Assembly (NCBI RefSeq): GCF_000744705.1
Contig: NZ_JQML01000001.1
Coordinates: 9,000,017-9,064,016 of the forward strand
Direction: 5' to 3'
DNA from: Streptacidiphilus albus JL83
GTDB taxonomy: Bacteria; Actinomycetota; Actinomycetes; Streptomycetales; Streptomycetaceae
Length of the DNA: 64,000 nt
Below are positions 26,480 through 41,398 of the stretch, one piece after another. Each line of letters starts with the position of its first letter. Position 1 is the first letter of the stretch. Both the position numbers and the translations under genes were made by a program. The notes under the pieces were generated by a model, which saw nothing but the letters and a program-made list of their open reading frames with translations, did no database searches and had not been told where the DNA came from.

Positions 26480-26710
26480 GTGAGGGTGCGGGACTCGCCG
26501 CTACTCCCGCTACCGACTGCGCATCGCCGCCCGCGCCCGCGACCTGGTCACCACCGGAAGCTCCGTCGAGGGCGCCTGCCGCATCGTCATCCTCGAAGAC
26601 CAACTCGCAGAAGCCCTAAGCCTCATCGAAGAGCTCCGGGCCGCAGCCCCACCCAAGGACGCGGCTCCGGCGTCCAGCGGGCCGCGCTGGTCGTGGAAGG
26701 AGGGGTCTGT
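26480..26710 (+). pseudogene. possible frameshifted small gene
   Basis: A GTG at 26480 has GGAGG four bases upstream, but its frame soon becomes an arginine/proline-rich shadow. The frame one base over reads like a true helical protein (YRLRIAARARDLVTTGSS, then ACRIVILEDQLAEALSLIEE). A single frameshift near 26485-26505 would join them. I do not recognise the family. Confidence 0.35.
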
Positions 26711-26776
26711 ACTCCCGGTGCGCGTTGCCCACTCCTGGGGCGGCGCGCACCGATGCCGTGCCCTCCAAGTGGACTG

Positions 26777-26790
26777 GGGACCAGTGGCCC
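26777..26790. promoter_or_regulatory. candidate DevR box, Rv1733c-like gene
   Basis: GGGACCAGTGGCCC has the 5-4-5 layout GGGAC-N4-GGCCC. It lies 98 bases upstream of the start of an Rv1733c-like gene, a family that belongs to the DosR regulon in M. tuberculosis. Confidence 0.55.
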
Positions 26791-26888
26791 TATGGCCGGA
26801 GACGACCGGTCCCTGCTGCCGCGCACCCCGCCGGACGCACCATGAGTCCGACGGCGAGCGGCGCCGTGACCCTAGGAGGCGAACGGCG

Positions 26889-27506
26889 ATGGCGACACCC
26901 GCAGCGACACCCACTCCACCCTTCCCCGCCGGGCGGCGCTCCCGCCTGGGCACTGCCCTGGCACGGCGGCGCAACCCGCTGTGGCGGCCCAGCGACAGCC
27001 TGCGCAGCCGACTGCGCGCCCTGATCGTGATCGGGCTGCTGGCGAGTGTCGGGGTGTCCGCCGGCTTCGCCCTGGCCCTGTACCGGGACGACCGTGCGGC
27101 AGCGCTGCGCCGCGACGCCCAGCTGCACAGCGTCCAAGCCGTGCTGGTGACCGCTCCGAGCAGGGCGCCCGCGAGTGACCCCGATGCGCAGTCCGCAGCC
27201 CGGGTCCGCTGGAGCGCTCCCGGCGGGACGGCCCGCGAGGCGAGCGTCGACGTCTGGGACGGTGCCGTCGTCGGTAACCGGATCCAGCTGTGGCTGGACG
27301 CCACGGGCAAGGTCAGCGCCGCACCCGTCACCGCCGGCGACTCGGTGACGTCTGCGGCCTACCTGGGAGTCCTGTGCCTGCTGTGCTCCCTCGGCCTGGT
27401 CACGAGCGCGGACAGCGCCGTGAGGGCGTGGGCGGACCGCACCGACGAGAACCACTGGGAGCGGGACTGGCGGCTCTTCGAACCCGTCTGGTCCCACCGC
27501 AGCTGA
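26889..27506 (+). CDS. Rv1733c-family membrane protein
   Basis: A 205-residue protein with two membrane helices, about residues 46-66 (LRALIVIGLLASVGVSAGFAL) and 155-175 (AAYLGVLCLLCSLGLVTSA), flanking an extracellular loop. The N-terminal RRRNPLWRPSDSLRSR and the loop arrangement match the Rv1733c family. The function of the family is unknown, but in M. tuberculosis its gene is induced by DosR in hypoxia. AGGAGG lies nine bases before the ATG. A DevR-like box is 98 bases upstream, and a universal stress gene follows. Confidence 0.75.
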   Translation: MATPAATPTPPFPAGRRSRLGTALARRRNPLWRPSDSLRSRLRALIVIGLLASVGVSAGFALALYRDDRAAALRRDAQLHSVQAVLVTAPSRAPASDPDAQSAARVRWSAPGGTAREASVDVWDGAVVGNRIQLWLDATGKVSAAPVTAGDSVTSAAYLGVLCLLCSLGLVTSADSAVRAWADRTDENHWERDWRLFEPVWSHRS

Positions 27507-27688
27507 CAGGCGGCGCAACCGCGCCACGTCTCCAGGCCGCCCAGCCTGCAGGGACCTGGAAGCAGCAGCACGTCGACGGATGCGACCCCGTCCTGGCCGT
27601 CGGCCCACAGGGCCCGATGGGCGAGCGGCTCGCACGCCGGCGAAGCACCTACCTGACGCACCGTCAACAAGTGATCGAGGAGCCGACA

Positions 27689-28582
27689 GTGAACCAGTCG
27701 CCCGTATCCGGAGTCGTCGTGGGAATCGATGCCTCCCCCCGCGCCCAGCAGGCCCTGGACTGGGCCGCCGACGAGGCGGACCGGCGCGGGGTACCGCTGC
27801 ACATCGCCCACTCCTGGAGCCTGGCGCCCTACCAGGAGCCGCCCGGGGACCGCGGCGACATCCCCGAGGACCTGCTGCAGGCCGCCCGGCAGCTGGTGCA
27901 CGAGGCCGAGGCCCACGTCCGTGAGCGGCAGGTCGGAATCGAGGTGCACAGGCACCTGCTGTCCGAGCGGACGGTGCCAGGCCTGGTGCAACTCGCCCAG
28001 CACGCACAGCTGCTGGTCGTCGGAACCCGTGGACGCAACCGTCTCTCCTCCACCCTGCTGGGCTCGGTCAGCCAGGGCCTGGCCGCGCATGCCGCCTGTC
28101 CGCTGGTCGTGTTCACCGGCCCCGAGGGGACGGCCGGCCCGGGGGAGTGGACTGGTGATGACGGAGTGGTGGTACTGGGGGCCGGCCCGGGGGAGGCGGC
28201 CGCTCCGGTCGAGTTCGCCTTCGCCGAGGCCGCGCGGCGGGGCGTGCCGCTGAAGGTGATCCGCACCTGGATGTACCCGCAGGCGTATCCCGGGATCCTC
28301 GCGGTGGGGCCGGTCGAGGAGGCCACCCGCACCCGCGACGAGAGTGCGGACCTGGCCGAGGTCCTGGCCGCAGGCCGCAAGGCGTTCCCCGACGTCCAGC
28401 TGGTCACCGAGGTCCGGCTGGACGAGGCCGACGCCGCCCTGGTCGACGCCTCCGCCGGGGCCGCCCTGGTGGTCCTGGGCGCCGAGCGCCACCGGCGCCG
28501 GTTCACCCTGCCGATGGGTCCGGTCACCCACCGGGTCCTGCACCATGCCCACTGCCCCGTCGCCGTCGTCCCGCACGTCTGA
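27689..28582 (+). CDS. universal stress protein, two UspA domains
   Basis: A 297-residue tandem UspA protein. Domain 1 begins VVVGIDASPRAQQALDWAAD and has the nucleotide-binding turn VVGTRGRNRLSSTLLGSVSQ. Domain 2 begins VVVLGAGPGEAAAPVEFAFA and ends with a less complete GAERHRRRFTLPMGPVTHRV. Double USPs of this type bind ATP and are common in dormancy regulons of actinobacteria. The GTG start has GAGGAG six bases upstream. A weak half-match to the DevR box lies at 27610-27623. It is followed by a second USP gene in the same direction. Confidence 0.88.
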   Translation: MNQSPVSGVVVGIDASPRAQQALDWAADEADRRGVPLHIAHSWSLAPYQEPPGDRGDIPEDLLQAARQLVHEAEAHVRERQVGIEVHRHLLSERTVPGLVQLAQHAQLLVVGTRGRNRLSSTLLGSVSQGLAAHAACPLVVFTGPEGTAGPGEWTGDDGVVVLGAGPGEAAAPVEFAFAEAARRGVPLKVIRTWMYPQAYPGILAVGPVEEATRTRDESADLAEVLAAGRKAFPDVQLVTEVRLDEADAALVDASAGAALVVLGAERHRRRFTLPMGPVTHRVLHHAHCPVAVVPHV

Positions 28583-28729
28583 GCGCGGACGCGGTTGGCG
28601 ACCGGGAGTCGCCGGCGTCCTATTCCACCGAGGCGGCGAGGCGGCGAGGCGGCGGAGCATCCGCTCACCCGCCTTGCCCCGCACCGGTACCCGCCCGTCC
28701 CGGATCAGTATCCGAAGAGGAGTCACATC

Positions 28730-29581
28730 ATGTCCCATCCCGTCATCGTCGGTGTCGACGACCCGCAGGGCAGCAGCGCCGCCGTCGACTGGGCCGCCGA
28801 CGAGGCCCGGCTGAGCGGCCTGCGGCTGCACCTGGTCCACGGCCTGCCCTGGTACCACCGGCCCGATTCCGGAAGCCTGGCCGAACAGTTGGTCCACAGC
28901 GCGAACCGCGAGGCCCTGCGCGCGCTCGCGAATCAGGCCGCGGACCGCCACCCCGGACTGGAGGTCACCAGCGGACTGGTCGACGTGTCGGCCCGCGAGG
29001 CGCTGGTGCACCTCAGCGCCGGGGCCGCCATGGTGGTCGTGGGGACGCGCGGAGCCGGAGGCTTCCCCGGACTCCTGGTCGGCTCGACCAGCCTGTACGT
29101 CACCGCCCAGGCAGCCTGCCCGGTCGTGGTCGTCCCTGGCGCGCACGGCAGCCGGCGCGGGGTGGCTGTGGGCGTGCACGGCGGCGAACCGTGCGGCGAG
29201 TTGCTCGCCTTCGCCTTCGAGGAGGCCCAGCGCCGCGAACTGCCGCTGCGGGTTGTCCACGCCTGGAGTCACCCGCTGATCGTGGGCTCGGGACATGCGT
29301 TCCCGCCGCTCCACGAGGAGGGCCAGGTCGTCGCCGAGCAGGTTCGGCTGCTGGCCGGGATCCTGACCGGCTGGCGGGAGAAGTACCCCGGGGTCGCGGT
29401 CACCGAGGACATCGTGCGCTCCGGCGCCGCCAAGCGGCTGGTTGAGGTCTCGGCCACGCAGCAGCTCCTGGTCGTCGGCCGCCACGGCCACCCGAACGGT
29501 CCGGTCGGACGCCTCGGATCGGTCAGCCAGGCGGTGGTGCACCACGCTCACTGCCCGGTCGCCGTCCTGCCGGCGCCCTGA
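28730..29581 (+). CDS. universal stress protein, two UspA domains
   Basis: A 283-residue paralogue of the preceding USP. Domain 1 starts VIVGVDDPQGSSAAVDWAAD and has VVVGTRGAGGFPGLLVGSTS. Domain 2 starts RGVAVGVHGGEPCGELLAFA and has the full ATP turn VVGRHGHPNGPVGRLGSVSQ. GAAGAGGAGT precedes the ATG at 28730. The gap of 147 bases to the first USP carries GAGGCGGC repeats. A perfect hairpin follows. The role is presumably in energy-limited or hypoxic survival, inferred from the neighbours. Confidence 0.88.
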   Translation: MSHPVIVGVDDPQGSSAAVDWAADEARLSGLRLHLVHGLPWYHRPDSGSLAEQLVHSANREALRALANQAADRHPGLEVTSGLVDVSAREALVHLSAGAAMVVVGTRGAGGFPGLLVGSTSLYVTAQAACPVVVVPGAHGSRRGVAVGVHGGEPCGELLAFAFEEAQRRELPLRVVHAWSHPLIVGSGHAFPPLHEEGQVVAEQVRLLAGILTGWREKYPGVAVTEDIVRSGAAKRLVEVSATQQLLVVGRHGHPNGPVGRLGSVSQAVVHHAHCPVAVLPAP

Positions 29582-29608
29582 GCGCCGACACGCGCGAGGC
29601 GACAGAGC

Positions 29609-29642
29609 AGTGGTCCGTGCGGCGCATGCCGCACGGACCACT
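29609..29642. terminator. bidirectional hairpin terminator
   Basis: Arms AGTGGTCCGTGCGGC and GCCGCACGGACCACT pair perfectly around a GCAT loop. It lies between the convergent USP and CBS-BON genes and can serve both. Confidence 0.85.
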
Positions 29643-29664
29643 CTCACTTCTCCCGGATCGCCCT

Positions 29665-30378
29665 TCAGCGGTGCCCCGGGTGTCCCGCTGTGAGCTGCTG
29701 CCCGGCCGATGCGCGGTTCGCCAGGGTGTCGTCGCTGCGGTAGCGGAGGTTCTCGGTCACCGAGACCACGCCGTCGACCCCGCGGCACAGACCGGCCAGG
29801 GCGGTGGCCACGCTGCGGTGCTCCAGCGTTCCGGCGAGCGTCACCTGGCCCTCGTGGACCTGGACGTCGATCTCGTCCACGGAGAGGCCCAGGATCTTTA
29901 CGAGCACGTCGTGGCGTATCTCCTCGCGGATCGCGGGATCGTGCCGTAGGAAGACCCGCAGCAGATCGCTCCGGCTCACGACGCCGATCCGGCGTCCGGC
30001 CTCGTCGACGACCACCAGGCGCTTGCAACCGCGCCGGTCCATCAGCCGGGCGGCCTCCACCACCGTCCATTCGGGCCGCGCGCACACTGCCGGGCTGCTC
30101 ATCAGCCCCTGGGCTGTGGTGGCCAGGCTCCGGGCGCGGTCCCGGTCCGTCAGGCTCGGCGCGGGCAGCAGGCCGGCCGGGTCCTCCACCGTGGCTTCGT
30201 GCCGCAGCAGATCGGCCTCGGAAACCACGCCCAGCGGCCGGTCCTGGTCGTCCAGCACCGGCACGGAGGTGATGTCGTGCTCCGCAAGCAGGCGGGCGAT
30301 CTCCTTGAAGGAGGCGTCGGGCCGCACGCACACGACAGCCGACGTCATCAGCTCCCCCACCATTCGGTGTCGCATCAT
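29665..30378 (-). CDS. CBS-pair protein with C-terminal BON domain
   Basis: A 237-residue protein. Two CBS motifs bind adenosyl ligands (VGELMTSAVVCVRPDASFKE with LGVVSEADLLRHE, and GLMSSPAVCARPEWTVVEAA with IGVVSRSDLLRVF). A BON domain follows (VQVHEGQVTLAGTLEHRS), which often contacts membranes or proteins. Such CBS-BON proteins are typical of actinobacterial hypoxia regulons. Two adjacent ATGs (30378, 30375) follow AAAGGAC. Two candidate DevR boxes lie about 101-135 bases upstream. Confidence 0.88.
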   Translation of the reverse strand: MMRHRMVGELMTSAVVCVRPDASFKEIARLLAEHDITSVPVLDDQDRPLGVVSEADLLRHEATVEDPAGLLPAPSLTDRDRARSLATTAQGLMSSPAVCARPEWTVVEAARLMDRRGCKRLVVVDEAGRRIGVVSRSDLLRVFLRHDPAIREEIRHDVLVKILGLSVDEIDVQVHEGQVTLAGTLEHRSVATALAGLCRGVDGVVSVTENLRYRSDDTLANRASAGQQLTAGHPGHR

Positions 30379-30478
30379 CAGAAGTCCTTTCAGATAAGGA
30401 TGACGGGCGACGGGCCCGCAGCCGTTGCGGGGCGATCGCAATACCCCCACTGTGGTCCTCGTGACCCGGCCGTGCCTT

Positions 30479-30513
30479 GGGCCGTGAGGCCTGCTCCGAC
30501 TGCCGATCGGCCC
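30479..30513. promoter_or_regulatory. tandem candidate DevR boxes, 21 bp apart
   Basis: Box 1 at 30479-30492 is GGGCCGTGAGGCCT, one mismatch from the 5-4-5 pattern. Box 2 at 30500-30513 is CTGCCGATCGGCCC with an intact right half. They are exactly two helical turns apart. The site is in the divergent region between the CBS-BON gene and the DevS-like kinase. Confidence 0.5.
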
Positions 30514-30757
30514 TCCCCGACAACGGGTGTCGGCCAGGGACCCGATCGGACGGACCTTGGAACGCCGGCCGTGCCGCGATCGCGGACCACATTCGGACGT
30601 TCGGTCGCCGCACAGGCCGCGCCCCATGGGGAACTGCCGGCGGGCAGTTGCAGAGAGCCCGACGGGGCCGGCGCTGCGCGTGGGCCCTCGCGTTGAGGGT
30701 CTGCGGTTCCGGGCGGATCTCGGCGCCCGCTACGGTGAACCATGACAGCTCCCGTGA

Positions 30758-32503
<1,746 letters not shown>

Positions 32504-32524
32504 CGGGCGCCCGGCCACGCAGGG

Positions 32525-32923
32525 TCAGGGGAGTGCGGCGGCGGGCGGTGATTCAAGGCGGCGGCCGGTCACCACTTCCGGGTGGATGCGGATCAGCACC
32601 CGGTCGGTGCCGGCCGCAGCTCCGGGTCGGGCTGACCGATCGGGTGCCACGCCGGCCCGTCCCAGGATGGTGACGCTCCAGCCGCTGCCGTCGACGCCGC
32701 TGACCTCACCGGTCTCGAAGGCGACCACCGCGCCGTCCACGGCCCGAACGAGTTCGGAGGCCGCGCTCTGCGCGAGCACCACGGAGCCGTCGGCGTCGAG
32801 CCGGAAGGGGACCGGCAGGACCGCCGGCATGGCTCCCTTGGTGTACACGATGCGCCCCACCGCCATGCCTGCCAGCAACCGCAGGCACTGCTGGGTGTCG
32901 AGGGACGCGTCTTCGAACTCCAT
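32525..32923 (-). CDS. PPOX-fold (pyridoxamine 5'-phosphate oxidase-like) protein
   Basis: A 132-residue split-barrel protein. The start LDTQQCLRLLAGMAVGRIVYT and the following AVLPVPFRLDADGSVVLAQS are characteristic of the small actinobacterial pyridoxamine 5'-phosphate oxidase-like family that is common in DosR-type regulons. The middle GSGWSVTILGRAGV is the usual flavin-side segment. Catalytic activity is unproven. It is convergent with devS. A candidate DevR box lies 37 bases upstream of its start. Confidence 0.8.
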   Translation of the reverse strand: MEFEDASLDTQQCLRLLAGMAVGRIVYTKGAMPAVLPVPFRLDADGSVVLAQSAASELVRAVDGAVVAFETGEVSGVDGSGWSVTILGRAGVAPDRSARPGAAAGTDRVLIRIHPEVVTGRRLESPPAAALP

Positions 32924-32959
32924 ACCCTGATCCTGCCCTGAGGGGCAGGATCAGGGTGA

Positions 32960-32973
32960 GGGCCATTGGTCCC
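32960..32973. promoter_or_regulatory. candidate DevR box, PPOX-like gene
   Basis: GGGCCATTGGTCCC fits GGGCC-N4-GTCCC. It is 37 bases from the start of the minus-strand PPOX-like gene. A weaker repeat, GGGCCTACCGGAGC, begins at 32982, 22 bases further on. Confidence 0.55.
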
Positions 32974-33030
32974 CGGACATGGGGCCTACCGGAGCAGACG
33001 CGTGACGTGGTCGCGGATCAGGGCTGCAGT

Positions 33031-33750
33031 TCAGGGCCGCGGGCGGGCGGCGCTGTGCGGCGCACGTGCTCCGGCCTGCTGGTCGTCGGCGGCGTGGGTG
33101 GCGATGACCGCTGCCTGGACCCGACGCTCGACGCCCAGCTTGGAAAGCAGACGGGAGATGTGGTTCTTCACCGTCTTCTCCGCCAGGAACAGCCGCTGTC
33201 CGATCTCCCGGTTGGTCAGCCCCTCGCCGATCAGCGCCAGGATCTCCCGTTCGCGCTCGGTCAGCGTCTCCAGGAGCTTCGGCTGCTTGTCGTGGGTGCT
33301 GTCCCCGCGCATCCGGGCCATCAGCCTGGTCGTGGCACCGGCGTCCAGCATCGACTGTCCGCCGGCCACCGTGCGTACGGCGGTGACCAGGTCCGTGCCG
33401 CTGATCTGCTTGAGGACGTAGCCGGAGGCACCTGCCATGATCGCGTCCAGCAGCGCCTCTTCGTCGTCGAAGGAGGTCAGCATCAGGCACGCCAGGCCGG
33501 GCACCCGTGAGCGCAGCTCACGGCAGGTGGTGACGCCGTCGCCGTCCGGCAGCCGCACATCCAGCACCGCCACGTCCGGACGCAGCGCGGGCACCCTGGC
33601 CAGGGCCTGTGCGACCGTGCCGGCCTCCCCGACGACCTCCAGGTCGGGCTCTGCCTCCAGCAGGTCGCGCACGCCGCGCCGCACCACCTCGTGGTCGTCC
33701 AGGAGGAAGATCCGCACCGGCGGCTCGGCACCGGCTGCACTGTCCGACAT
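33031..33750 (-). CDS. devR: DevR/DosR-like response regulator (NarL/FixJ family)
   Basis: A 239-residue two-component regulator. The receiver domain has [20 protein letters not shown], the phospho-acceptor aspartate in [13 protein letters not shown], the [11 protein letters not shown] switch threonine/serine region, and GYVLKQISG with the conserved lysine. The LuxR-type DNA-binding domain reads [18 protein letters not shown] and [16 protein letters not shown]. The block is strikingly like mycobacterial DosR. Its C-terminal tail of about 20 residues is low complexity. A perfect 14-base 5-4-5 box lies 78 bases upstream, which suggests autoregulation. Confidence 0.9.
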
Positions 33751-33827
33751 GGCACGACTCCCTGCTCCTGGCCTGGTCCGCTGCGGCGGGACCTTCGCAT
33801 CCTGACCCTTGGAAGGACCGGGGTCCA

Positions 33828-33841
33828 GGGCCGATCGGCCC
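33828..33841. promoter_or_regulatory. candidate DevR box, devR promoter
   Basis: GGGCCGATCGGCCC, a perfect palindrome (AGGGCCGATCGGCCCT when extended), 78 bases upstream of the regulator start. It is the best match of the set. Confidence 0.65.
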
Positions 33842-33891
33842 TATTGGCACGGGTTTCCCCCCAGGAGGCGCCAGGCCGTAGGCATGGCCTG

Positions 33892-34665
33892 TCAGGGGCG
33901 GTGGCCGGGAACGGGTGTACGTGTGTCGTCGGTCTGCCAGAACAGGTCGTCGGCGAGGTCCGCGAGGCCCTCGACGGCGAGCACGCGCTCGCGCAGTGTC
34001 TCCGCCTGGCTGCGCCGGGCCGTTGTGGCCCGTAGCGCGACCCGACCCTGTTGGCAGTCCACGAGGAGAGTGGAACGTTCGACGTCCAAGTCCTGGCGCA
34101 CGGCTATGAAGAGGACTTCGGAGCGGATCGCGTCGTCGCTCCGGTCCAGCGCGCCGAGCAGGTCGCACAGGCACACCATTCCCACCAGATGTTCCTGGTC
34201 GTCGACGACGGGGACGTGGTGGAGGTGGTGGCGTGCCGCGAGGCGGGCGGCTTCGGCGGCGGTGGCGTCGACACTGACGGTGAAGACGGGGGCGGTCATC
34301 AACTCACCGGCGACCACTGCGGCAGCGCGTCGGCGCAGCGCGTGCGGCAGACGAGCATCCGGCACGCGCAGGTGCGACGGCAGGGCCTGCCGGGCGAGTC
34401 TGGCGAGCAGGTTCGAGGCACTGACCGTGCCCACGACCCGGCGCTGGTCGTCCACCACGGGGACGAGCCCGTGGTGGTGGGTGCGCAGGGCCGCCACCAC
34501 CTGAGCGAAGCCCGTCCAGGGATCGACGGTCGTCACCTTGGGGGTCATCAGCTCGCCGACCAGGGTGCGGTGCGGTAGGCCGTCCCTGCCCGGGGGCTGC
34601 GACTGTAACTGCACCATGATCGGCGGCCCGGTACAGACGGTGCTGGCGTGCGTTCTGGCTCGCAT
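33892..34665 (-). CDS. CBS-pair protein
   Basis: A 257-residue protein with two CBS motifs: VGELMTPKVTTVDPWTGFAQ with VVGTVSASNLLARL, and AGELMTAPVFTVSVDATAAE with LVGMVCLCDLLGAL. The C-terminal 60 residues (LVDCQQGRVALRATTARRSQ) look like a reduced BON-type domain. Histidine-rich turns (LRTHHHGLVPVVDD, AARHHLHHVPVVDD) are unusual, though the ligand is probably a nucleotide. AGGAAGG lies before the ATG. Two candidate DevR boxes 21 bp apart lie upstream. Confidence 0.82.
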   Translation of the reverse strand: MRARTHASTVCTGPPIMVQLQSQPPGRDGLPHRTLVGELMTPKVTTVDPWTGFAQVVAALRTHHHGLVPVVDDQRRVVGTVSASNLLARLARQALPSHLRVPDARLPHALRRRAAAVVAGELMTAPVFTVSVDATAAEAARLAARHHLHHVPVVDDQEHLVGMVCLCDLLGALDRSDDAIRSEVLFIAVRQDLDVERSTLLVDCQQGRVALRATTARRSQAETLRERVLAVEGLADLADDLFWQTDDTRTPVPGHRP

Positions 34666-34743
34666 GACATTCCTTCCTGACTACTGCTTCGGGTTGTGGT
34701 TCGGCACTTCTCAACTGTGGCTGTTCGCAGACCACCGGACGTC

Positions 34744-34778
34744 GGGCCGAACGTCCCTCGCCTGGGGCCGACCGGGTA
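34744..34778. promoter_or_regulatory. tandem candidate DevR boxes, 21 bp apart
   Basis: Box 1 at 34744-34757 is GGGCCGAACGTCCC, a full 5-4-5 match. Box 2 at 34765-34778 is GGGCCGACCGGGTA with an intact left half. The spacing equals that of the pair at 30479-30513. The pair lies 79-113 bases upstream of the CBS gene. Confidence 0.6.
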
Positions 34779-34806
34779 CGAGCCGCTTCCGGTGAGCGTG
34801 GGCGCC

Positions 34807-34857
34807 GGACCTGGGCCATGGCCCAGGTCCACTTGCCGAAGAACCCGGAGGGGTTCT
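34807..34857. terminator. perfect 24-bp palindrome and adjacent hairpin
   Basis: A perfect palindrome fills 34807-34830 (half-site GGACCTGGGCCA). A hairpin with arms AGAACCC and GGGTTCT follows at 34840-34857. The second lies 18 bases past the minus-strand HAD gene and is a plausible terminator. The palindrome may be a second stem or a protein site. Confidence 0.45.
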
Positions 34858-34874
34858 GGAACACCGGTCACGGC

Positions 34875-35612
34875 TCAGGGGGTGAGCAGATCGCCCAGGT
34901 CCCGGACGACGATGTCCGCTCCGTGTCGTCGGAGTTCGTCGGCCTGGCCGGCGCGGTCGACGCCGATGACGCAGCCGAAGCCGCCGGTGCGGCCGGCGTC
35001 CATCCCGGCGAGGGCATCCTCGAAGACCGCGGCCTGCACGGCGGTGACGCCGAGGGCCTGTGCTGCGGCGAGGAAGGTGTCGGGCGCGGGTTTGCCCGAC
35101 AGTTTGCGGTCGGCGGCGACCAGTCCGTCGATCCGGACCTCGAACAGGTCGGCGATCCCTGCGGCGAGCAGCACATCGTGGCAGTTGGCGCTGGAGGAGA
35201 CGACGGCCCGTCGCAGCCCGGCGGCCCGTACGGCCTCGACGTAGCGGATCGAGCCCGGATAGGCCTCGACGCCCTTCTCCTTGATCAGTTCCAGGACGAG
35301 CGCGTTCTTCCGATTGCCGAGACCGTTCACGGTCGCGCGATCCGGAGGGTCCTGCGGGGTGCCCTCGGGCAGGTGGATGTCCCGGGAGGCGAGGAAGGCG
35401 CGGACGCCGTCGGCCCGGGGCAGTCCGTCCACGTACCGGTTGTAGTCGGCGACGGGGTCGAACGCTTGGAACGAGTCGCCCTGGCGCCGGCGCAGGAAGT
35501 GGTCGAAGGTCGACTTCCAGGCTGCCGCGTGGACGGTGGCTGTCTCGGTGAGCACGCCGTCCAGGTCGAACAGGCAGGCGCGAATGCCGTCGGGGAGTCC
35601 CAGGGCGGCCAT
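34875..35612 (-). CDS. HAD-family beta-phosphoglucomutase-like phosphatase/mutase
   Basis: A 245-residue HAD enzyme. Motif I is ACLFDLDGVLTETATVHA with the nucleophile and acid aspartates. Motif II is VVSSSANCHDVLL, motif III KLSGKPAPDTFLAA, and motif IV VFEDALAGMDAG. Placed directly after a GH65 phosphorylase, it probably isomerises the beta-glucose 1-phosphate that enzyme releases to glucose 6-phosphate. I use ATG 35612, preceded by AGGAG at six bases. An ATG at 35642, sharing a base with the GH65 stop, would add ten residues. Confidence 0.88.
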   Translation of the reverse strand: MAALGLPDGIRACLFDLDGVLTETATVHAAAWKSTFDHFLRRRQGDSFQAFDPVADYNRYVDGLPRADGVRAFLASRDIHLPEGTPQDPPDRATVNGLGNRKNALVLELIKEKGVEAYPGSIRYVEAVRAAGLRRAVVSSSANCHDVLLAAGIADLFEVRIDGLVAADRKLSGKPAPDTFLAAAQALGVTAVQAAVFEDALAGMDAGRTGGFGCVIGVDRAGQADELRRHGADIVVRDLGDLLTP

Positions 35613-35641
35613 GGCTGTCTCCTGCCCGCGGTCGGCGCCCA

Positions 35642-38017
35642 TCAGTGCAGACCGCCTTCGATGCCTGCGGACCAGCTCCGGTGGGCCGGGCTGCGACCTG
35701 CGGGCTGCCGTACGTCGGGGGGACGGTGCGGCACCGGCACCGGTCCCTCGCCCGGGACCTCCTTGGTCACGGTGACTGCTGTGCCGTGGTGCCGGATGCC
35801 CAGCTCGGCTCCCTCCAGCAGGGTGTAGACGGCGCGCTGGTGGGTGATCTCCACGCGCAGGCAGCACTGCCGGAACCGCACGGTGAAGGCCAGGCGGGTC
35901 AACTGCTCGGGCAGGCGTGGGGAGAAGGACAGCGCGTCGCCGCTGTGACGCATTCCGCCGAAGCCCGAGACCAGGGCGATCCAGGTGCCGGCGAGCGAGG
36001 CGATGTGGAGGCCGTCCCGGGTGTTGTGCTCCAGGTCGGCGAGGTCCATCAGCGCCGCTTCGCCGAGGTAGTCGTAGGCCAGCGACAGATGGCCGACCTC
36101 GGCTGCGATCACCGCCTGGCTGCATGCGGACAGCGAGGAGTCCCGGACGGTGACCCGCTCGTAGTAGGCGAAGTTGGCGGCCTTCTGCTCGGCGGTGAAC
36201 AGGTCGCCGCGCTGCTGCATGGCGAGGACCAGGTCGGCCTGCTTGGACACCTGCTTGCGGTACAGCTCGACATAGGGGAAGTGGAGCAGGAGCGGGTAGT
36301 GCTCGGGCGGGGTTCCGTCGAAGTCCCACAACTGGTGACCGGTGAAGCCGACCGACTGCTCGTGCACGCCGAGCGCCTCGTTGAAGGGCAGCGCGATCCG
36401 GGCTGACGTGTTCCGCCAAGCGGCTGTCTCCTCGGCGTCGACGCCCAGCAACGCCGCCCGGTCGGGGTGGCGTTCGGCGGCGTCGGCGGCCGCCCGCAGG
36501 TTCTGTTGGGCCATCACGTTGGTGTAGACGTTGTCGTCGGCCAGCGCGCTGTACTCGTCGGGGCCGGTCACACCGTCGAGATGGAAGACTCCGTCCCGGT
36601 CGTGGTGGCCGAGTGAGGCCCACAGGCGTGCGGTGTGCACCAGCAGTTCCAGCCCGGCCTCGCGGTCGAACTCCTGGTCTTCGCTGGCCGAGGTGTAGCG
36701 CTGGACAGCCGACGCGATGTCGGCGTTGATGTGGAAGGCGGCGGTGCTCGCGGGCCAGTAGGCGGAGCACTCCTGGCCGTCGATGGTCCGCCAGGGAAAC
36801 GCCGCTCCGGCCGGGCCGAGCTGCCGGGCCCGCTCCAGCGCCGCGGGCAGCGTCGAGTGCCGCCAGCGCAGGGCCTGGCCGGCGGCCCTCGGCGCGGTGT
36901 AGGTGAGCACCGGCAGTACATACGCCTCGGTGTCCCAGAAGCAGTGGCCGTCGTAGCCGGAACCGGTCAGCCCCTTGGCGGGAATCGCCCGCTCCTCGGC
37001 TCGTGCGCCGGCCTGCAGCACGTGGAACAGGGCGAACCGCACCGCCTGCTGGATCTCCGCGTCGCCTTCCACCTCGACATCGGCCTGCGCCCAGAACTCG
37101 TCCAGGCGCTCGCGCTGCTCCCGGAGCAACCCCTCCCAGCCGGTCTCGCCGGCCCCGGCCAGCGCGGCGTCCACCTGGTCGTGCAGAGCGGGCACCGACC
37201 GCAGCGCGGACCAGCCGTGGGCGACGATCTTCTCCACCCGCAGGCACTGCCCGGGGCGCAGCAGCGAGACGACGGTGAGACGGCTCAGATCCGGGCTGCT
37301 CTCGGCGGAGGTGCTCGTGCCCGTCGGGCCGGAGACCCGGTGGTCGGCGGCGACAGCGACCCGCAGCCCGCTGCGGGTGGTCCGGTGCACCAGCCGCAGC
37401 TTTCCGTCCCGGGCGAAGTCGTGCTCGGACCGGAGCACCGAGTCCAGGGTGGCCCCTAGCCGCGGGTCGCCCTGCTGCTCGGGCAACTGCTCGTTGGCGA
37501 CCAGTTCGGACTGCAGTACCACGCGAATCTCCGCGTCCACCGCCTCGACCTCGTAGGCGATCGCGGCAATGGCCCGCTGGGTCAGCGAGACCAGCCGGGT
37601 CGAACGGACCCGCACGGTGCCCCCGGAGGGTGCCGTCCACTCGAAGCTGCGCCGAAGGACTCCGCTTCGGAAGTGCAACTCCCGCTCGTGGCTGTGCAGC
37701 CGGCCGAGACGCAGGTCCAAGGGCTCGCCGTCGACCAGTAGCCGGATCAGCTTGCCGTTGGTGACATTGATGATCGTCTGACCGGACTCCGGGTCGCCGT
37801 AGCCGGCCTCCGCGTAGGGCAGCGGACGGAGTTCGAACACGCCGTTCAGATAGGAGCCGGGCAGGCCGTGCGGTTCGCCCTCGTCCAGGTTGCCGCGCCA
37901 GCCGATGTGGCCGTTGGACAGCGCGAACACCGACTCGCTCTGGGCCAGCACGTCGAGGTCCAGCTCCTGCTCGCGCAGGGACCAGGGGTCCACGGCGTAG
38001 GCGGGGTGGCTGATCAT
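35642..38017 (-). CDS. GH65 disaccharide phosphorylase (trehalose/kojibiose/maltose phosphorylase type)
   Basis: A 791-residue glycoside hydrolase family 65 protein with an N-terminal beta-sandwich, a linker and an (alpha/alpha)6 barrel. Landmarks are FALSNGHIGWRGNLDEGEPH, the phosphate-site region GYDGHCFWDTEAYVLP, FPWRTIDGQECSAYWP, and the general acid glutamate in HLDGVTGPDEYSALADDN. It cleaves an alpha-glucosyl disaccharide with phosphate to beta-glucose 1-phosphate, used by the following HAD enzyme. Trehalose is a likely substrate in a spore-forming actinomycete, but kojibiose or maltose cannot be excluded. The ATG follows GGAGG. A 5-4-5 box lies 130 bases upstream. Confidence 0.88.
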   Translation of the reverse strand: MISHPAYAVDPWSLREQELDLDVLAQSESVFALSNGHIGWRGNLDEGEPHGLPGSYLNGVFELRPLPYAEAGYGDPESGQTIINVTNGKLIRLLVDGEPLDLRLGRLHSHERELHFRSGVLRRSFEWTAPSGGTVRVRSTRLVSLTQRAIAAIAYEVEAVDAEIRVVLQSELVANEQLPEQQGDPRLGATLDSVLRSEHDFARDGKLRLVHRTTRSGLRVAVAADHRVSGPTGTSTSAESSPDLSRLTVVSLLRPGQCLRVEKIVAHGWSALRSVPALHDQVDAALAGAGETGWEGLLREQRERLDEFWAQADVEVEGDAEIQQAVRFALFHVLQAGARAEERAIPAKGLTGSGYDGHCFWDTEAYVLPVLTYTAPRAAGQALRWRHSTLPAALERARQLGPAGAAFPWRTIDGQECSAYWPASTAAFHINADIASAVQRYTSASEDQEFDREAGLELLVHTARLWASLGHHDRDGVFHLDGVTGPDEYSALADDNVYTNVMAQQNLRAAADAAERHPDRAALLGVDAEETAAWRNTSARIALPFNEALGVHEQSVGFTGHQLWDFDGTPPEHYPLLLHFPYVELYRKQVSKQADLVLAMQQRGDLFTAEQKAANFAYYERVTVRDSSLSACSQAVIAAEVGHLSLAYDYLGEAALMDLADLEHNTRDGLHIASLAGTWIALVSGFGGMRHSGDALSFSPRLPEQLTRLAFTVRFRQCCLRVEITHQRAVYTLLEGAELGIRHHGTAVTVTKEVPGEGPVPVPHRPPDVRQPAGRSPAHRSWSAGIEGGLH

Positions 38018-38146
38018 GAAGGTTGACCTCCGTGGCTTCCCTCGGACGCGGTTGCGGGGCTTCGCTCTTGCCAGGGGCCGGTTCGGCTCGGTGCGACACG
38101 CCGATGCAGTAGCTCCAGTCTGCGCCCGGATCCCAGCCCGGGCATG

Positions 38147-38160
38147 GGGCCTATCGGCCC
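38147..38160. promoter_or_regulatory. candidate DevR box, GH65/VOC divergent region
   Basis: GGGCCTATCGGCCC fits the 5-4-5 pattern and lies in the divergent region between the GH65 gene (130 bases) and the VOC gene (about 197 bases). A looser GGGCC...GGCCC pair with a six-base gap follows at 38166-38181. Confidence 0.55.
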
Positions 38161-38356
38161 CGAGCGGGCCCCGAGCGGCCCAAGACGGGATCGCCGCGCA
38201 GCAGGAGAGTGGAACATGCGGGCGCGGACACGGACGTTTCAGGGCAGTAGGAGCAGTCGAGCAACGTCCAGCGAGATCCGCCGGCGCCGCGTCGCCCCCC
38301 CGGTCCCACAGCGATCCAGAGCCCCGAAACCCCGCCGGCATGAAAGGACATCTCCC

Positions 38357-38851: not shown

Positions 38852-39298
38852 CCGTGCGTGTGCCAACAATCCCCCCGGGTCGGCAGGACCGCGTGCATCC
38901 CCGGTCCGGGATCGGCTTCCTGAGCTCGACGCCACCAGGCGGAGGAATGCGGCAGGGCGGAACAGGTGCCTCACCTGCAAGATCAGCGGCGGAATGCGCC
39001 ACCGCACCCTTCACCCCTGAAAGACCGTGACCCGAAGCCGGGTGCGGCTATCCTCGTCGGCGCCGGCGCCGACGCTGTGGGTCTGCTGTCGATGCTCCTG
39101 GGTTCGCGTCGGCTCCGCACATGCGCACAGTCGGCCCCGCACCAGCCGCGACGTCTCACCGGAGACGTCGGCGGGTGGCGGCTGCGCAGCAGCGGGGGAG
39201 GATGGGGGGAGGACGAACGCAGGCCGGTGGGCCCGAGGCGACGGCGTGGTCCCGCCCTCGGGCGGCCGGCGCCGGGCGGGCCGAAGGAGGGCAGGCGC

Positions 39299-41398
39299 AT
39301 GGGCGTGTCCGATGCGTTGCGAGGTGAGCCCGGCGTGGTCGAGGTCGCGCCGTCGGAGCCGGGCGGTCTGCTGGATGTGCTGAGCGTGGCCGCGGTGGTG
39401 CTGGGCGCCGACGGACGGATCGTGCTGTGGAGCCCGCAGGCCCAGGAACTGTTCGGGTGGAGCGCGCAGGAGGCGCTGGGCCGGTCCGCGGCCGCGCTGC
39501 TGGTCCCGGACGAGTACGTCGACCTGGTCCTCGGGCTCTTCGCGAAGGTCATGGCGGGCGACGGCGCCTGGGCCGGGGTCTTCCCCGTGCGGCACAAGGA
39601 CGGCTCCAGTCGGCTGGTGGAGTTCCGCAACATGCGGCTGCTCGACGAGCAGGGCCGCGTCTACGCGCTGGGACTCGCCTGCGACGAGGCGACCGTGCGC
39701 GGCGTGGAGCGCGACCTCGCACTGTCGGTGCGGCTGGTGGCACAGTCCCCGATCGGGCTGGCCGTGCTGGACACCGAGCTGCGCTACGTCCTGGTCAACC
39801 CCACGCTGGAGCGGATCAACGGCCTCCCCGCCGACGAGCTCCTCGGCCGCCGGGTCCGCGAGGCACTGCCGTTCCTGGACGTCGATGTGGTCGAGGCCGC
39901 GATGCGCCAGGTCGCGGCCACTGGCGTGCCGCTGCTCGACCAGTTCGCGGTCGGCCGCACACCGGCCGACCCCGGCCATGACCACGCCTGGTCCAGCTCG
40001 TACTACCGACTGGAGGACTCTGCCGGGCGGGTGCTCGGCGTCGCGCTGTCGGTCGTGGACGTCACCGATCAGCACCGCGCGGCCACGGAAGCGGCCGAAA
40101 CCCGGCGGCGGCTGGCCCTGATCGACCGCGCCTCGGTGCACATCGGCACCACTCTGGACCTGGACCGGACCGCCCACGAGCTGGCGGACCTCGTGGTCGC
40201 CGACCTGGCCGACCTCGCCGCAGTCGACGTCCTCGACTCGGCCCTGCAGGGCAGCGACACCGCAACCGCGACCAGCGCGGTGCCCGCGCTCTTCCGGGCA
40301 CTGGCCGTGGCGGCGGGCTACGAGACCGACGCCGTCGACGCCGCCGATCCCCCCGGCGAAATCGCCAGCTACCCCGCCGACCGCCTGGTCACCCGGTGCG
40401 TGAGCACCGGACGTCCGATACTGGTGGCGCGCGTCGGCCACCGGGACCTGCTCCGTATCGCCCGCGACACCGACGCCGCCGCCCTCCTCGCAGCCGAGGG
40501 CGTGCACTCCTACCTGGCCGTGCCGCTCAAGGCACGCGGCCAGGTACTGGGCGTCCTCGACCTCCTGCGCACCCGCAACCCGCGACCCTTCGACGCCGAC
40601 GACGTGGTGCTGGCCGGCGAACTGGCCGCCCGTGCCGCCGTGTGCATCGACAATGCCCGCTGGTACCAACACGCCCGGGACACCGCGCTGACCCTCCAAC
40701 GCCACCTGCTCCCGCACGCCCCACCACAACCCGCCGGTCTCCAGATCGCGTACCGGTACCAACCGGCGGCAACGGCCAGCGGGATCGGCGGCGACTGGTT
40801 CGACGCCATCCCACAGACCCAGGACCGGACCGCCCTGGTCGTCGGCGACGTGATGGGACACGGTGTGCAGGCCGCCGCCACCATGGGACAGCTGCGCACC
40901 GCCACCCGCACCCTGGCCAACCTCGACCTGGACCCCGCCCAGGTCCTGGAACAGCTCGACCACATCACCTCCGGCCTGGACCGGACCATGGCCACCTGCG
41001 TCTACGCCGCCTACGACCCGCACCGTTCCCGCTGCCGCATCGCCCTCGCCGGCCACCTGCCCCCGGTGCTGACCAGGCCCGGCCGCGCCCCGGAACTCCT
41101 CGACCTGCCCGCCGGCGTCCCCCTGGGCACCGGCGACCTCGGCAGCGGCTCGTTCGAGGCCACCTTCCTCACCCTGGACCCCGGCGACCAACTGGTCCTG
41201 TACACCGACGGCCTGGTCGAGACCCGCGGCCAGCCCCTCGACGAGCGCCTCGCCCTGCTCCTGGACCTGCTCACCGAACCCGGCCGACCGCTGGAGGAGA
41301 CCTGCGACCTGCTCCTGGCCGCCCTCCGCCACCCCGACGCCCACGACGACGTCGCCCTCCTCATCGCCCGCGTGGCCCCGAACCGGCCTCCCGGGTGA
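39299..41398 (+). CDS. PAS-PAS-GAF-PP2C (SpoIIE-type) phosphatase
   Basis: A 699-residue signalling phosphatase. PAS-1 spans about 20-130 (AAVVLGADGRIVLWSPQAQE) and PAS-2 about 142-255 (SPIGLAVLDTELRYVLVNPT). A GAF domain spans about 270-455, and the SpoIIE-type PP2C domain fills the rest, with metal-binding motifs GIGGDWFDAIPQ, VVGDVMGHGVQAAATM, LVLYTDGLVETRG and the final DDVALL. Proteins of this design dephosphorylate STAS anti-sigma antagonists and so release SigB-type sigma factors. It lies 6 kb from the sigma module. ATG 39299 follows GGAGGGCAGGCGC. Confidence 0.9.
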   Translation: MGVSDALRGEPGVVEVAPSEPGGLLDVLSVAAVVLGADGRIVLWSPQAQELFGWSAQEALGRSAAALLVPDEYVDLVLGLFAKVMAGDGAWAGVFPVRHKDGSSRLVEFRNMRLLDEQGRVYALGLACDEATVRGVERDLALSVRLVAQSPIGLAVLDTELRYVLVNPTLERINGLPADELLGRRVREALPFLDVDVVEAAMRQVAATGVPLLDQFAVGRTPADPGHDHAWSSSYYRLEDSAGRVLGVALSVVDVTDQHRAATEAAETRRRLALIDRASVHIGTTLDLDRTAHELADLVVADLADLAAVDVLDSALQGSDTATATSAVPALFRALAVAAGYETDAVDAADPPGEIASYPADRLVTRCVSTGRPILVARVGHRDLLRIARDTDAAALLAAEGVHSYLAVPLKARGQVLGVLDLLRTRNPRPFDADDVVLAGELAARAAVCIDNARWYQHARDTALTLQRHLLPHAPPQPAGLQIAYRYQPAATASGIGGDWFDAIPQTQDRTALVVGDVMGHGVQAAATMGQLRTATRTLANLDLDPAQVLEQLDHITSGLDRTMATCVYAAYDPHRSRCRIALAGHLPPVLTRPGRAPELLDLPAGVPLGTGDLGSGSFEATFLTLDPGDQLVLYTDGLVETRGQPLDERLALLLDLLTEPGRPLEETCDLLLAALRHPDAHDDVALLIARVAPNRPPG

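Follow-up and report, generated by a model that had tools for sequence, protein, structure and literature searches.

The stretch of DNA considered here, the window, comprises 64 kb of Streptacidiphilus albus JL83 (bases 9,000,017-9,064,016 of the single 9.9-Mb contig NZ_JQML01000001.1). Within it, an island of about 11.4 kb (26777..38160) contains genes for a NarL-type response regulator, DevR/OsdR, and for a DevS/OsdK-like sensor kinase, together with short palindromic boxes, candidate binding sites of the regulator, in front of several neighbouring genes. The genes of the island are:

26889..27506, plus strand: Rv1733c family gene (NF050032, 106.2 bits, cut-off 80), the one match to this family in the genome
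27689..28582, plus strand: universal stress protein (USP) gene uspA, two Usp stretches (PF00582, 1.1e-44)
28730..29581, plus strand: universal stress protein gene uspB, two Usp stretches (PF00582, 2e-43)
29665..30378, minus strand: CBS-CBS-BON protein, below CBS-BON (PF00571, PF04972)
30788..32503, plus strand: DevS/OsdK-like sensor kinase, GAF-GAF-HisKA_3-HATPase (PF13185, PF07730, PF02518)
32525..32923, minus strand: PPOX-like protein (PF12900, 4.6e-14)
33031..33750, minus strand: NarL-type response regulator DevR/OsdR (closest PDB match DevR, 3c3w)
33892..34665, minus strand: second CBS-domain protein, two stretches (PF00571, 1.4e-25)
34875..35612, minus strand: beta-phosphoglucomutase family HAD protein (TIGR02009, 168 bits, cut-off 153; PDB 8h5s, beta-phosphoglucomutase, 9.9e-84)
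35642..38017, minus strand: GH65 disaccharide phosphorylase-like protein (PF03632, 5.4e-128; top PDB matches maltose and kojibiose phosphorylases)

The devS and devR genes are convergent, with the PPOX-like gene between them, and do not form one operon in the window; the same order is seen in the relative locus L167 and its mirror image in L087, L088 and L109.

An earlier note on this DNA had listed eight boxes with a 5-4-5 motif in the promoters of the island and taken them for a DevR regulon. All eight sequences are present where that note had placed them, but three depart from the motif: GGGMC-N4-GKCCC is matched exactly at 26777, 32960, 33828, 34744 and 38147, with one mismatch at 30479, two at 30500 and three at 34765. 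Two further exact matches, at 2680 and 28127, were not on its list. Sites were scored with a position weight matrix (PWM) built from the 25 distinct sites among the 26 printed for OsdR of Streptomyces coelicolor (PMC5069765, Table 1), one duplicate having been removed. The 16-mers used here start one base before the 14-mers of the earlier note; no strand is assigned to the boxes:

26776..26791: box GGGGACCAGTGGCCCT before the Rv1733c-like gene, weak, PWM 4.5, centre at -105
26798..26813: second box GGAGACGACCGGTCCC before the Rv1733c-like gene, weak, PWM 4.7, 22 bp from 26776
30478..30493: partner box in the CBS-BON/devS region, weak, PWM 0.9, 21 bp from 30499
30499..30514: box between the divergent CBS-BON and devS genes, PWM 14.3, rank 4 in the window
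32959..32974: box at -44 of PPOX, PWM 11.2, rank 8
32981..32996: partner box, 22 bp upstream of the PPOX box, weak, PWM 2.3
33827..33842: putative autoregulatory box AGGGCCGATCGGCCCT at -85 of devR, PWM 22.6, rank 1
34743..34758: box at -86 of the second CBS gene, PWM 17.4, rank 2
34764..34779: partner box of 34743, 21 bp off, weak, PWM -0.8, one half-site intact
38146..38161: box at -137 of GH65, PWM 14.9, rank 3
38167..38182: partner box of 38146, 21 bp off, weak, PWM 1.0

By this measure the listed boxes at 30500, 32960, 33828, 34744 and 38147 stand, while those at 26777, 30479 and 34765 are weak. The four best sites of the window are all listed boxes, as are five of the best eight; ranks 5 to 7 (12343, 28126 and 40821) fall outside island promoters. 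The 5-4-5 match at 28127-28140, which scores 12.5, lies within a USP coding region. CBS-BON and devS are divergent, and the 30478/30499 pair lying between them may serve either gene; the 38146 box also lies before, or within the start of, a divergent glyoxalase-like open reading frame. The devR box is identical to the OsdR consensus AGGGCCGATCGGCCCT that Urem 2016 printed from 12 Streptomyces osdR promoters (PMC5069765).

Boxes are kept in front of several of these genes in relatives. Orthologs were taken as the best tblastn matches above cut-offs for identity and for the N-terminus, with lower matches excluded and start codons extrapolated. L172, L177 and L180, which are duplicate loci, were mostly left aside, L180 being kept in the inverted-repeat comparison and L172 in that of distant GH65 members. 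A box scoring at least 13 lies upstream of 81 of 98 devR relatives, 7 of 10 uspA orthologs and 3 of 5 second CBS orthologs. PPOX orthologs carry such a box in 15 of 29 cases and one of at least 11 in 21, 12 of the 21 at -43 to -50; for the Rv1733c-like orthologs, where boxes were sought within 350 bp upstream, the corresponding counts are 5/11 and 10/11, with seven boxes at -106 to -135. Random segments of the same loci contain a box of at least 13 in 4-12% of cases, depending on the gene (118/1960 for devR). Judged by such sequence comparison, the footprints in relatives speak strongly against a chance origin of the boxes.

The regulator itself matches DevR of Mycobacterium tuberculosis best among PDB entries (3c3w, 1e-78), followed by VraR (3.7e-44). 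Its residues D64, K192, K195 and N196 align with D54, the phosphorylated aspartate, and with K179, K182 and N183, the DNA-contact residues of the recognition helix, in that DevR (positions counted by hand). The roles of D54 and K182 in the M. tuberculosis protein are covered in PMC3029386 and PMC5999986, respectively. The genome encodes three DevR-like proteins at E <= 1e-50, in the window, at 0.70 Mb and at 4.73 Mb. In a tree of 100 rows, the window copy clusters with the same-genus L169 and same-family L173 copies (support 82/83), and the 0.70-Mb copy sits on a long branch. For the first GAF domain of the window DevS, the top PDB matches are 2vzw, presumably DosT GAF-A, and DevS GAF-A entries. 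H138 and Y160 of the window kinase are conserved and fall, in the alignment, at H149 and Y171 of DosS, which are its proximal histidine and distal tyrosine (PMC4082495), making the window GAF-A a candidate haem domain in which both residues are kept.

A second island lies at 0.69-0.71 Mb (L067), on the other chromosome arm, where two USP genes, devS, devR and CBS-BON stand beside a Band-7 protein. Its first USP gene is divergent from devS, and its devR is 67% identical to that of the window. Boxes occupy the USP/devS gap, before the first USP gene, and the devR/CBS-BON gap; the box before this devR reads AGGGCCGTTCGGCCCT. Two more (L067:9084 and 9331) are located inside the long Band-7 reading frame, whose true start is unsure.

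Because the devR box equals the OsdR consensus, and OsdR binds at such predicted sites, including that of osdR, in electrophoretic mobility shift assays (PMC5069765), and because the second island has the same kinds of genes and boxes, we consider the window island to be, very probably, an OsdR/DevR (DosR) regulon, in which the boxes would be bound, the targets activated as a stress programme and paired boxes used in a cooperative, switch-like fashion. The system is thus of an already known kind. The DevR reading of the earlier note is supported by the regulator, the haem-GAF kinase, the consensus box and the boxes kept before PPOX, the Rv1733c-like gene and devR, and less so by those before CBS-BON.

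It is conceivable that the boxes arose by chance, since G+C-rich palindromes are frequent in DNA of 72% G+C and their presence was the reason for choosing the island. The bare 5-4-5 pattern leaves room for this, as the window has 7 matches against a shuffle mean of 2.96, a number reached by 5 of 100 shuffles, and as genome-wide the pattern is rarer than its backwards version (231 vs 704); three of the listed boxes also score poorly with the matrix. The comparison with shuffled sequence that the earlier note had named is therefore marginal for the bare pattern, but not for matrix sites: the stretch 26700-38300 holds 4 of at least 13, compared to a mean of 0.08 and a maximum of 1 in 100 dinucleotide shuffles. 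The strict 16-mer RGGGMCNNNNGKCCCY, found at 37 places in 9.9 Mb versus 101 for its backwards control (those of the 37 within fetched stretches were examined), occurs 4 times in the 11.4-kb island, with 0.042 expected (Poisson P ~1.3e-7, before correcting for region choice). In 80 of 97 related devR loci, the set used for counts of density and of pairs per locus, we find 298 sites of at least 13 in 1.52 Mb. The 29 GH65 loci that served as controls, similar in G+C, contain a single one in 153 kb, and one was also found in 80 kb made up of four arbitrarily picked 20-kb pieces of the genome to which the window belongs. Finally, 20 column-permuted palindromic control motifs yield 14-124 sites each, compared to 362 for the real motif in the same loci. 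Shuffles, permuted motifs and the footprints in relatives make chance palindromes so improbable that we discarded them as an explanation.

A different reader of the boxes is also to be considered, in that the DevR-like regulator at 0.70 or at 4.73 Mb might also, or mainly, act on them, the two islands forming one cross-wired regulon. The presence of three such proteins and the same kind of box in the 0.70-Mb island, including that before its devR, would fit this, but the window copy lies amid boxes and has a consensus box of its own, and no site of at least 13 is present in the 20 kb surrounding the 4.73-Mb copy; cross-wiring thus appears unlikely to us. The GH65 box calls for more caution. 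The sequence claimed at 38147 is present, is the third-ranking site of the window and is accompanied by a weak box at 21 bp, yet orthologs do not share it: of 56 relatives matching GH65, 29 ortholog loci were covered, and no upstream box of at least 13 occurs in any of them. On contigs carrying both, GH65 ortholog and DevR relative are at least 88 kb apart, except in G044 (28 kb, 52% DevR relative), and the distant members of the GH65 family (27-30%) that occur in 13 devR loci, 12 of them distinct, are preceded by no site above 8.6. GH65 as a conserved target is unsupported by either set, and that the 38146 box is accidental, with the GH65/beta-phosphoglucomutase operon outside the regulon, is a serious possibility, towards which we nevertheless do not lean. 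Distant GH65 members recur within about 10 kb of devR, for example in L159, L162, L117 and L119, and in L159 and L162 a beta-phosphoglucomutase-like HAD gene is found near them.

The boxes of the window tend to come in pairs. Both pairs for which the earlier note had claimed a distance of 21 bp (30478/30499 and 34743/34764) have exactly this spacing, and three more at 21-22 bp had escaped it (26776/26798, 32959/32981 and 38146/38167). Of six window promoters, whose boxes were chosen after that list, five thus have a partner box of -1 or more at 20-22 bp, with a mean of 0.24 and a maximum of 2 at 58 other distance triples. The 97 related loci contain 362 boxes, of which 133 are joined by a partner of at least 2 at 20-22 bp; exact copies were omitted, as were boxes less than 230 bp from either end of a locus, and the 58 other triples, which begin at 26 bp and take in a peak at 31-32 bp, give a mean of 9.7 and a maximum of 22. 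By distance, 20 partners lie at 20 bp, 59 at 21, 58 at 22 and 16 at 23 bp; lesser peaks are seen at 31-32 bp (12 each) and, without explanation, at 14 bp (16). Two and three helical turns are consistent with two dimers on the same DNA face.

Since the 97 loci are not independent, boxes with similar flanks were removed, a filter that takes out near copies alone; 123 of 333 boxes were then paired at 20-22 bp, compared to a mean of 9.0 and a maximum of 20 elsewhere. Pairing at this distance is found for 27 of 806 sites of the 20 column-permuted motifs summed, and for 1 of 15 boxes of at least 12 in other stretches of the same genome. By gene, paired promoters make up 10/11 for the Rv1733c-like family (mean elsewhere 2.4), 7/10 for uspA (0.8), 14/29 for PPOX (2.2), 14/43 for CBS-BON (2.4), 31/98 for devR (10.7) and 2/5 for the second CBS gene (0.8). 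At least one pair is present in 55 of the 80 devR loci, and pairs like 30478/30499 were recognised by eye in L168 and L088, of six relatives compared. A search for papers on the spacing of OsdR/DevR boxes returned none recognisably on this subject, the original M. tuberculosis work on cooperative sites lying outside that search; the available portion of PMC5069765 lacks the words tandem and spacing, but its Table 1 contains one pair of sites at -248/-268. The spacing rule is borne out by sequence statistics, and the cooperativity of paired boxes would follow by analogy with M. tuberculosis, whose full-length DevR fills an adjacent low-affinity site cooperatively (PMC3029386).

Besides the GH65 orthologs, several observations weigh against reading the island as such a regulon with paired boxes. 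The matrix sites are mostly predictions derived from osdR promoters, which makes the devR footprint partly circular. Boxes of at least 13 precede only 13 of 43 CBS-BON, 16 of 61 devS and 1 of 3 HAD orthologs, and none of 5 uspB orthologs. In the window, the best sites upstream of the USP genes score 0.9 (uspA) and 1.4 (uspB, inside the preceding gene), and these genes were rejected as direct targets. Searching the genome with TIGR01580 gave no match to narG, a target elsewhere, which was likewise dismissed as a target here; it is a target gene, however, rather than a prerequisite of the regulator. As to pairing, one of the six window boxes (26776) is itself weak, the devR box, although the strongest, stands without a partner at 20-22 bp (best -15.2), and few window partners score at least 2: at this cut-off, 2 of 6 boxes are paired, compared to a mean of 0.10 and a maximum of 1.

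A broader proposal holds that a strong palindrome accompanied by a weaker one at 21-22 bp, occupied by two dimers on one face, is a general grammar of OsdR/DevR in streptomycetes, and that the GH65/beta-phosphoglucomutase operon was captured by it in this lineage; we rate its prospects as nearly even. If true, the capture would mean phosphorolytic, ATP-sparing use of storage disaccharides at low oxygen. The paired-box rule is the part of the system worth pursuing.

Some further features touch on the island or lie far from it. Directly past its end, a PAS-GAF-SpoIIE phosphatase (38966-41398) is a possible stress-signalling partner. At the PPOX start we find:

32924..32957, no strand assigned: perfect 15-bp inverted repeat with a 4-base loop, touching the PPOX start codon

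This repeat overlaps the likely PPOX ribosome site (RNA fold z -4.1); among relatives, seven rows, six of them distinct, passed the filter, and none has an inverted repeat of at least 7 bp. Elsewhere in the genome, an Asp23-family gene at 1.467 Mb, with no devR nearby, is preceded at about 100 bp by a box of 20.1 (L071:9951-9966, own genome 1466950-1466965) and is a possible outlying target; an amino-acid permease gene at 4.918 Mb has a box of 16.5 some 120 bp upstream (L076:8973-8988). The site at 8740580, just within a reading frame that is FtsX-like by eye, and those of L078, L074 and L082, inside long reading frames, were not counted as promoter boxes.

Two known systems come closest. One is the regulon of the OsdR/OsdK pair of S. 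coelicolor (SCO0204/SCO0203), with which the window shares the 12-species consensus at devR (the printed osdR site of S. coelicolor itself is two bases off), a PPOX gene with a predicted box (SCO0214 at -50, here -44), USP genes near the regulator and a haem-type GAF kinase. Three OsdR target promoters of S. coelicolor that work in the parent strain show little or no activity once osdR is mutated (PMC5069765). In contrast to the osdR-osdK operon, the window devS is convergent with devR across PPOX; the genome has a second island on the other arm and no narG match, and the window island includes the GH65/beta-phosphoglucomutase pair and the Rv1733c-like gene. The other is DevR/DosR of M. tuberculosis, the solved structure closest to the window regulator, in which the contact residues are conserved; the window also has pairs similar to the strong and adjacent weak site that M. 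tuberculosis DevR binds cooperatively (PMC3029386). The target set and the host, a soil actinomycete, differ, however, and the window half-sites are mostly GGGCC, unlike the mycobacterial GGGAC of the consensus quoted in PMC6448022. Where the earlier note invoked the mycobacterial palindrome, the boxes are of the streptomycete GGGCC type published for OsdR (PMC5069765).

Taken together, the DevS-type kinase would sense low oxygen, nitric oxide or redox state via haem in its first GAF domain and phosphorylate DevR at D64. Nitric oxide is reported to lower DevS autophosphorylation (PMC4766573), so that the response to it may have either sign. DevR would then bind 16-bp palindromes of the type AGGGCCNNNNGGCCCT, whose identity as OsdR boxes is established in the window, and activate, as a stress programme, devR itself, the Rv1733c-like gene, CBS-BON and/or devS, PPOX, the second CBS gene and perhaps the GH65/beta-phosphoglucomutase operon. 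At most promoters the box would recruit one dimer, and a second would fill the weaker box 21-22 bp off cooperatively, both dimers lying on the same DNA face, two helical turns apart, and giving a switch-like response.

The island thereby probably extends the streptomycete dormancy regulon, on which experiments have been done in S. coelicolor, to a genome that has two such islands and lacks any narG match. The 21-22 bp spacing rule is directly testable in Streptomyces and, if true, would sharpen the prediction of such regulons, as the weak partners dropped by single-site scans would gain meaning.

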